Positions 9,442 to 57,831 of a stretch of DNA of 64,000 nucleotides are shown piece after piece. The stretch is from the NCBI RefSeq assembly GCF_034531395.1, contig NZ_JARVCO010000012.1, forward strand, positions 372,001 to 436,000, written 5' to 3'. How positions within the stretch are numbered: position 1 is the first letter of the stretch; the number at the start of each line of letters is the position of its first letter. This DNA comes from Pontiella agarivorans (GTDB taxonomy: Bacteria > Verrucomicrobiota > Kiritimatiellia > Kiritimatiellales > Pontiellaceae). Position numbers and translations under genes: made by a program. The notes beneath the pieces are model-generated. The model made no database searches and was not told the DNA's origin. It saw only the letters and a list, made by a program, of their open reading frames with translations.

Positions 9442-10881
9442 ATGCGAAAACTGATTCTGATACTGGGTGCAGCTCTTCTTGCCTCAATTCTGAACGGCTG
9501 TGTCTCAAACTATGAAAAACGCGGGTTGGCCTATTCTGCGGAAACCCGTGCGTCTGAAGTTGAATTTCTGGTGGATGAAACGTGGGTGGACACGAATGGT
9601 GTGCGGTATGTGGATCAGGAAATTTTTGATGCGATCTATGAAATGATCGATGAGGCCGAGCAGTTTGTGCTGATCGATCTGTTCCTGATGAATGAGTTCG
9701 GTTTTGAGGTCGGTCCATGCATGCGGGCTTTGGGGCCGGAGTTGACGGAAAAACTGCTGGTGAAACGGAGCAACCGCCCGGATGTTGAAATTATCTTTAT
9801 TACCGATCCGGTGAATACGGTATATGGTTCAATTGAATCGCCGCAGTTCCAGGCCTTGGAAAAGGCCGGTGTGCAGGTGGTGGTGACGGATCTGAATAAA
9901 CTGCGCGACAGCAATCCGATTTATTCCAAACCCTGGAGGATTCTGGCGCAGCCGTGGGGGACCGGGCCGGGAAATATACTGCCGAATCCGATGGGTGAGG
10001 GGCGGATCTCGCTGCGCAGTATGTTTAAGATGCTGAATTTTAAAGCCAACCATCGGAAGGTGGTGGTGACGGATCAGGCGTTGCTGATGACCAGTGCCAA
10101 TCCGCACAGTGCGAGTTCGGCGCATCGCAATGTGGCGTTGAAAGTGAATGCCGGGATGGCCGAGGCCTGCGAAATGGAGTCGGCGGTTCTGGAGTTTTCG
10201 GGTGAAGAAAAGTTTGTTCCGGAGTTTGGAGGGCGAGGCTCCGTCCGAGCCGCAGCGTCCTCCATGGCTCGGACGGAGCCTCGCCCTTCAGAGGGATACA
10301 AGGTCGAGCTGCTATCTGAAATCCGGATTCGCGACAAGGTGCTTGAACTGCTGGAAAACGCACAGCCCGGGGCCCGAGTGGACCTGTGTATGTTTTATAT
10401 GTCGGAAAAAAAAGTGATTAAAGCCTTCGTCAACGCCAAAAAACGCGGGGTTGATGTACGCATTATCCTTGATCCGGCCAGAGATTCGTTCGGGCGGACA
10501 AAGAACGGCGTGCCGAACCGGCAGAGCGGTGCGAAACTGGTAAAAGCCGGGATTCCATTGCGTTGGGCCGATACGCACGGGGAACAGTGTCACGCGAAAA
10601 TGCTTTATGTGGAGAATCCGGATGGATCGGCCACGTTACTGCTGGGTTCGTGTAATTACACGCGGCGGAATATGAATAATTTCAACTGCGAGGCTGATCT
10701 GGCTTTTACCGCGCCGCGGGATGATCCGAATCTGGTAAAGGCGTGCAAGACGTTTGATCGGTGGTGGAGCAATGAGCCGAACCGGATTTATACCTGTGAC
10801 TATGAAAAATACCGCGATGGAAACTGGTGGCGCAAGTTCTGCGCCTGGTGGGGAGAAACGTCGGGTATGTCGATCTTCTGA
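9442..10881 (+). CDS. Phospholipase D-family lipoprotein (cardiolipin synthase-like)
   Basis: The 479-residue protein starts at 9442, giving a lipoprotein signal with lipobox LNGC; the longer frame from 9352 would bury this signal. Two HKD motifs mark the PLD superfamily: H204-x-K206 (NHRKVVVTD) and H384-x-K386 (CHAKMLYVE), each followed by the usual Ser/Asn-rich strand (TSANPHS, GSCNYTRRN). Members transfer or hydrolyse phosphodiesters, for example cardiolipin synthases and surface PLDs. The region between the two halves (about residues 263-282) is encoded by a perfect 21-bp inverted repeat that keeps the frame open. The exact substrate is not evident. A TTCCA-N5-TGGAA palindrome also lies inside the gene. 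Confidence 0.85.
   Translation: MRKLILILGAALLASILNGCVSNYEKRGLAYSAETRASEVEFLVDETWVDTNGVRYVDQEIFDAIYEMIDEAEQFVLIDLFLMNEFGFEVGPCMRALGPELTEKLLVKRSNRPDVEIIFITDPVNTVYGSIESPQFQALEKAGVQVVVTDLNKLRDSNPIYSKPWRILAQPWGTGPGNILPNPMGEGRISLRSMFKMLNFKANHRKVVVTDQALLMTSANPHSASSAHRNVALKVNAGMAEACEMESAVLEFSGEEKFVPEFGGRGSVRAAASSMARTEPRPSEGYKVELLSEIRIRDKVLELLENAQPGARVDLCMFYMSEKKVIKAFVNAKKRGVDVRIILDPARDSFGRTKNGVPNRQSGAKLVKAGIPLRWADTHGEQCHAKMLYVENPDGSATLLLGSCNYTRRNMNNFNCEADLAFTAPRDDPNLVKACKTFDRWWSNEPNRIYTCDYEKYRDGNWWRKFCAWWGETSGMSIF
9847..9861. repeat. 15-bp palindrome TTCCA-N5-TGGAA, site 1
   Basis: Perfect arms with centre GGCCT. It lies in the phospholipase D gene, read as FQxLE. Confidence 0.8.
10230..10287. repeat. 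In-frame palindromic element inside the PLD gene
   Basis: Positions 10230-10250 and 10267-10287 are perfect 21-base inverted copies separated by a 16-base loop. The element is read through in frame (GRGSVRAA, then SMARTEPRP), between the two catalytic halves of the phospholipase D-like protein. Its composition is G+C-rich and unlike a conserved enzyme segment. It resembles a mobile REP-like element that inserted without breaking the frame, comparable in concept with Rickettsia palindromic elements. No second copy was found in this window. Confidence 0.85.
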
Positions 10882-17303: not shown

Positions 17304-18047
17304 ATGAGTGCGATACTGGTCATAGATATTGGGAATACCAGTTCTTCGGTGGGTTACTATCGGAACGGGAAGGTGACGTCGGTGGGGCGGTGTGCATCGC
17401 GGTTCCAATCCTTGGAAGACGTTGAGCCGATTCTTACGAAGAAACCGGTTGAGGCCGTGGTGATTGCTTCGGTGGTGCCGCCGGTGAATGCCCGGTGGAA
17501 AAAAGCCGTGAAATTACTCGGGCTGCCGAAGCCGCTGTTTGTTTCGAGTGAACTTGAGCTGGGTGTTCCGGTTGATTATCCGAAGCCGGAAAATATCGGA
17601 GCGGATCGTCTGGCGAATGCGGCGGCGGGGGCAAAGCTGATGGGGACGCCCTCGGTGGTGTGTGATTTCGGGACGGCACTGACCTTTGATATTCTCGATC
17701 CGGTAAAGGGGTACAAAGGCGGTATTATCTGCCCGGGTCTGCCGCTGATGTTTGATTATCTGGCCGAAAAAACCGCACTGCTTCCGCATGTGGAACCGGT
17801 CAAAACCAAAGCGGTCGTCGGCCGCAATACCAAGCAGGCGATGCAGATCGGTGCCCGTCTGGGCTATCGGGGCATGGTGCGTGAAATTCTCCAGTCGCTG
17901 AAAAACGATTTCGGTGTCACGGAGCTTCCGGTCTGCTGCACCGGAGGTTATGCCGGGTGGATTTTCAAAGACTGGGATATTGCGGCGGTCATTGATCCCA
18001 AACTCACACTGCGGGGAGTCGGAATTATCGGTGAGCTGAATCTCTGA
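17304..18047 (+). CDS. coaX: Type III pantothenate kinase
   Basis: CoaX phosphorylates pantothenate, the first step of coenzyme A synthesis; the type III enzymes belong to the acetate kinase/Hsp70/actin (ASKHA) fold. The 247-residue product shows the N-terminal phosphate loop (LVIDIGNTSSSVGYY), the PENIGADRLANAAAG motif, the catalytic and adenosine-side strand VVCDFGTALTFDIL, and GGIICPGLPLMFDYLAEKTA. Length fits the family. A TTCCA-N5-TGGAA palindrome falls at 17403-17417 in the codons for FQSLE. No gene partner in the CoA pathway is adjacent. Confidence 0.95.
   Translation: MSAILVIDIGNTSSSVGYYRNGKVTSVGRCASRFQSLEDVEPILTKKPVEAVVIASVVPPVNARWKKAVKLLGLPKPLFVSSELELGVPVDYPKPENIGADRLANAAAGAKLMGTPSVVCDFGTALTFDILDPVKGYKGGIICPGLPLMFDYLAEKTALLPHVEPVKTKAVVGRNTKQAMQIGARLGYRGMVREILQSLKNDFGVTELPVCCTGGYAGWIFKDWDIAAVIDPKLTLRGVGIIGELNL
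17403..17417. repeat. 15-bp palindrome TTCCA-N5-TGGAA, site 2
   Basis: Perfect arms with centre ATCCT. It lies inside coaX, read as FQSLE. Confidence 0.8.
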
Positions 18048-57730: not shown

Positions 57731-57793
57731 GTTGTGGGTTCTCGTTCGCACAGCTCCGAGTCGCTTCGCGTGACTGTTTTTGAAATCAAAAGC
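57731..57793 (+). repeat. Degenerate terminal CRISPR repeat split by a 31-bp insertion
   Basis: GTTGTGGGTT (57731-57740) matches the first 10 repeat bases at 9. After 31 foreign bases (57741-57771), 57772-57793 matches the rest of the repeat at about 20 of 23 with one deletion (GACTGTTTTTGAAATCAAAA, then GC). It lies exactly one 30-nt spacer after the last perfect repeat, marking the leader-distal end. Confidence 0.75.
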
Positions 57794-57831
57794 CGTTTCA
57801 GCTTTTTGTGAGCTGAAACGGCTTTTGTTTT
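57788..57831. terminator. Bidirectional terminator between the CRISPR array and the fucosidase operon
   Basis: A perfect 16-bp stem (57788-57803 with 57811-57826, 7-base loop) is followed by a T-rich tail on the plus side and weaker T-rich sequence on the minus side. It ends the plus-strand array and can also stop the convergent minus-strand operon. The stem's left arm overlaps the broken repeat. Confidence 0.85.

Follow-up and report, generated by a model that had tools for sequence, protein, structure and literature searches.

REPs that flank the genes of REP-associated tyrosine transposases (RAYTs, HUH/Y1 type), and REPINs, have already been described (Nunvar 2010, PMC2817692; Bertels and Rainey 2011, PMC3116915). 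Dimers of GTAG/CGTC REPs that are inserted in frame into genes add 20-30 residues to the encoded proteins; most of them were found in Opitutus terrae (Verrucomicrobia) and in R. conorii, flexible linkers were suggested as REP-tolerant sites, and in one case, recB of two Xanthomonas, different REPs were present at about the same site (BMC Genomics 2013, PMC3733652). Rickettsia palindromic elements (RPEs) have a length of about 150 bp and encode a peptide that is conserved within each family (PMC10969869). No earlier report of REPs in Kiritimatiellota was found in the searchable literature. Since in-frame REP dimers have been described, also from Verrucomicrobia, the kind of event reported here is already known; what is new is the phylum of the host, the combination of a GGAG head with a RAYT partner, and the fact that the same linkers are used repeatedly. 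The locus is a palindrome within a PLD-family gene of Pontiella agarivorans, located in a 64-kb stretch of DNA that was analysed as a whole (the window). We assume, with a probability of roughly 0.9, that this palindrome is a REPIN composed of two inverted GGAG-headed REPs, that it was copied by a RAYT, and that it is carried in frame in a tolerant linker with nearly neutral effect. The features of the locus, in window coordinates, are as follows.

9442..10881, + strand: PLD-family lipoprotein gene (479 aa) that bears the insertion; open frame, PF13091, orthologues, PLD fold in PDB search
10051..10074, + strand: first HKD motif HRKVVVTD, residues 204-211; H204 and K206 invariant in alignments
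10227..10290, no strand: probable REPIN made up of a spacer between two inverted REPs, inserted in frame and encoding residues 263-283; inverted repeat, dispersed copies
10228..10251, + strand: 5' REP arm GGAGGGCGAGGCTCCGTCCGAGCC; copies with 0-3 mismatches in other genomes, stem co-variation
10252..10265, no strand: 14-nt spacer separating the two REPs; varies from copy to copy
10266..10289, - strand: inversely oriented 3' REP arm with the head GAAG, which differs from GGAG at one position; C12:382266-382289, 1 mismatch
10591..10614, + strand: second HKD-type motif HAKMLYVE, residues 384-391; H384 and K386 invariant, E replaces D

The reading frame starts with an ATG at 9442, stays open through the palindrome and encodes a protein of 479 residues with a lipobox-like N-terminus and a match to Pfam PF13091 (PLDc_2, E=3.9e-24). 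Orthologues (34-85% identity) are present in Kiritimatiellota and beyond, and an AlphaFold model of the protein (mean pLDDT 89, pTM 0.90) matched PLD-superfamily structures in a PDB search. The palindrome encodes GGRGSVRAAASSMARTEPRPS, a stretch of 21 residues (263-283) that lies between the HKD motifs, in agreement with the initial annotation of this DNA, which had postulated an in-frame insert of about 20 residues between the HKD halves of a PLD-like gene and had proposed structural modelling of the loop. Residues 265-278 are the only segment of the model with pLDDT values below 50; the preceding helix ends at residue 252 and the next strand starts at residue 286. The insert-bearing linker is probably flexible or disordered and tolerant to differences in length; the comparison of orthologues revealed a variable linker length across the family. 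The protein is presumably made and still active, and the insert probably has little effect on it.

The inverted repeat covers positions 10227-10290 (64 bp; TGGAGGGCGAGGCTCCGTCCGAGCC / 14 nt / GGCTCGGACGGAGCCTCGCCCTTCA), and its arms of 25 nt each are 96% complementary (24/25 paired). A perfect 21-bp repeat with a 16-bp loop had been annotated at 10230-10287; these outer positions are correct for the inner perfect part, but arms and loop have to be revised to 22+14+22 (10230-10251 / 10266-10287). Among all short-spaced inverted repeats of the window, this one is the strongest, and its ungapped inverted-repeat score of 22 compares with maxima of 6-12 in about 100 orthologous genes. The stable mRNA hairpin that had been considered possible is also predicted in silico: a 104-nt stretch with the palindrome folds as RNA at -64 kcal/mol (z = -7.1), and none of 200 shuffles was equally stable. 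A generic scan of the window for a head plus hairpin detected no element and missed the known REPIN too, probably because of the G-A mismatches in its stem. A second inverted repeat at 57783-57831 (21-nt arms, 95% complementary, 7-nt loop) is located outside large ORFs and is possibly a terminator.

Each arm of the PLD-gene palindrome is built from a GGAG-type head followed by a short, GC-rich imperfect palindrome (hairpin). When 28 genomes were searched with the 24-bp REP unit (≤3 mismatches), matches were found in 13 of them, namely the own genome of the locus and 12 relatives, and the reversed pattern used as control gave zero matches. The own genome has seven arms at five places; the highest counts were determined for G005 (54 arms) and G014 (47 arms). 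This genome-wide search confirms that the inserted peptide is translated repeat DNA, as the initial annotation had supposed. Numerous copies occur as pairs in inverted orientation, with spacers that vary and the bounds TGGAGGG...CCCTCCA, and many have no gene-like ORF across them. An alignment of 17 variants yielded the consensus GGNNNNG-CTYYGT-CNNNNCC after GGAG, with a 7-bp stem; in the PLD-gene copy, G-A mismatches occupy two positions in the middle of the stem. In the stem, 90.8% of the cells are paired and the covariation score is 0.547, compared with 0.145 in shuffles (0/500 reach 0.547) and at most 0.194 when the stem is slid. The variants, which come from the family itself and from the flanks of RAYT genes, were chosen by hand for likeness to the PLD-gene REP; the co-variation is therefore supportive, not independent evidence.

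A search that started from the REPs, and not from RAYT loci, led to the cognate RAYT; the first 30 RAYT loci examined had no flanking REP of the PLD-gene family. In the congener G001, a Y1-type ORF (RAYT) is flanked by a REP identical to the PLD-gene unit and by two close variants, and in G009 an ORF with 69% identity to this RAYT has variant GGAG REPs on both sides. RAYT homologues in G017, G030, G035 and the own genome (C6:141283) adjoin GGAG REPs with other stems. The proteins of G001 and of the own genome score above the NCBIfam cut-off for the REP-associated tyrosine transposase (NF047646, REP_Tyr_transpos). Several points count against our main reading: the own genome has very few copies of this REP, the RAYT on C6 has a related GGAG REP, another RAYT of this genome (C12:920216) has GTAG REPs at its flanks, and none of its RAYTs was seen with exactly the PLD-gene REP at the flanks.

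The PLD-gene element shares with the described REPs and REPINs the head tetranucleotide, the GC-rich short hairpin, the inverted doublet that forms a long hairpin, the dispersed repetition in the genome, RAYT genes that are flanked by the same units (in G001 and G009) and the co-variation of the stem. It differs from them in its head, GGAG with GAAG in the 3' arm in place of GT(A/G)G, in its low copy number in the own genome, and in its position within a gene and not between genes. GTAG-headed REPs are also present in the own genome. We treat GGAG as a head variant because RAYT flanking is present; under a strict reading of the head criterion we would call the element REP-like. Like the intragenic REPs of O. 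terrae, it is a REP dimer within an ORF of a PVC bacterium; linkers were suggested as tolerant sites for those REPs, too. In contrast to the intragenic GTAG/CGTC REPs, however, several different REPs were found in one linker, in at least four lineages, and there is a clean empty site for a second gene (pabB). We view the REPIN as a miniature, non-autonomous element formed by a pair of inverted REP units with GGAG heads. Most likely, a RAYT once copied it into the PLD gene, presumably with single-stranded hairpin DNA as the substrate. As the frame used has no stop codon and the net length keeps the frame, the REPIN would have become 21 extra residues; these could be accommodated in the disordered, length-tolerant linker between the HKD halves, and the element would persist there as a near-neutral linker extension.

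Alignment of the orthologues, as the initial annotation had advised, showed that the palindrome is absent from them, including the nearest one (G025, 85% identity), which the tree places as the fully supported sister and the linker of which is unrelated in sequence. An insertion on the branch of the own genome (G000) is the most economical reading. A clean pair of empty and filled sites was not found at the PLD gene, the linker minus the insert being shorter than that of any orthologue; together with the unrelated sister linker, this indicates that other change came after the insertion or went along with it. The same linker carries GGAGGGGCGCTCGCTGAGCGCC in G005, where the genome has one more exact copy and 22 additional matches (≤3 mismatches; control 1). 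In G022 (by its coordinates a contig of the Pontiella sulfatireligans type strain) and in G027 it carries GTAGGGCTCGA(C/T)CGCCGGGCGAGC(C/G), of which exact copies are found at other places in G022, G027 and G019, and in G019 it carries GTAGGGACGGCTGTCCCAGCCGTCC, with two further exact copies; G017 is a weaker case. Other dispersed REPs are hence located in this linker in three other lineages, possibly four if G017 is counted, and at least four different REPs occur in one linker across species, at slightly different positions. Independent insertions are the simplest reading, and one REP may have been swapped for another; a single insertion common to G005 and G026 is not supported by the tree. 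Because different palindromes of the same kind occupy this linker in several related species, we regard the insertion as real, tolerated and recurrent. The linker of G001 had also been flagged by the inverted-repeat scan and was rejected as a REP, its palindromes being similar to TTCCAA-N3-TTGGAA. Sites of this type are enriched in the window (15 versus 0.34 expected), with exact sites at 17403, 23023, 27986 and 37406 and 11 sites with one mismatch.

In the own genome, the REP family of the PLD gene is also present in frame in a pabB-pabC fusion (chorismate-binding and aminotransferase IV domains). The same family occupies this site in G005, G014 and G007, a different, GTAG-headed palindrome (read by eye) is found there in G006, and the site is short and empty in G017, G010, G001, G009, G013 and G004. 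In relatives, REPs are inserted in frame in rapA (between SNF2 and Helicase_C), hsdM and thrC. The frames used differ from gene to gene, as do the encoded peptides (GGRGSVRA, LEGDALSEP, GSDGASPS). The pabB-pabC fusion of the own genome (G000:C10:1275572-1277395) has a second variable linker at codons ~281-310 with a different palindrome (CACGGAG.../...CTCCGTG); the inserts at this place differ in other species, and one of them, GRLGQPSLP, matches the translation of a GTAG REP.

These insertions bear on the parallel to Rickettsia that the initial annotation had drawn. In-frame entry into unrelated genes (PLD and pabB here, rapA, hsdM and thrC in relatives), in frames without stop codons, would be in agreement with a selfish element of the RPE type that is adapted to spread in coding sequence by way of a tolerated peptide, and both are palindromic mobile DNA in frame in protein genes. 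The RPE description itself nevertheless sets the PLD-gene element apart, which has 64 bp and is RAYT-linked; no peptide is conserved since frame and peptide change between PLD, pabB, rapA and hsdM, the many copies without a gene-like ORF argue against such an adaptation, and architecture and transposase are those of REP/RAYT systems. We consider an RPE-like element very unlikely: the apparently mobile palindrome that provides an in-frame peptide was correctly recognised, but the element fits the REP/REPIN class with its RAYTs, and RPEs are a looser parallel of effect. A drive of REPs to enter genes is possible but unsupported.

The strong predicted RNA fold and its position between two domains could also point to a hairpin that is retained for regulation and slows translation between the domains to aid folding. 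The sister and most orthologues, however, lack it, and the linker palindromes of other species are of unequal strength and several have decayed, a pattern that does not point to strong hairpins being selected; such a retained function is very unlikely, and a translational role of the hairpin is likewise possible but unsupported. Native PLD-family coding sequence or a chance palindrome, for which the variable linker length of the family might speak, has practically no probability left: it was already refuted by the dispersed copies with zero control matches, and the score exceeds that of each of the about 100 orthologous genes. The initial annotation had named identical residues in orthologues from other phyla together with a lack of dispersed copies as evidence against an insertion; the encoded residues proved to be unconserved and the copies dispersed.

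With the REPIN reading, RAYT-linked REPs that have GGAG heads and copies within genes are extended to Kiritimatiellota. The same gene and linker with different REPs per species, and the empty sites in a second gene, provide a clean natural system in which to ask if protein linkers are built by miniature mobile elements. It is conceivable, although we regard it as rather doubtful, that some interdomain linkers (PLD-like lipoprotein, pabB) are repeated landing sites of unrelated REPINs in the genus; a domesticated transposase system would thus contribute recurrently to the length and composition of linkers, by target preference or selection and beyond mere tolerance.

GGAG REPs were also observed in a further arrangement. 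In G005 (C1:1464500-1469000, positions 1356-2922), units of about 500 bp with a GGAG REP are repeated in tandem with ~89-91% identity and adjoin an integron-integrase-like ORF; in G014, a REP is located near an integron integrase, too.
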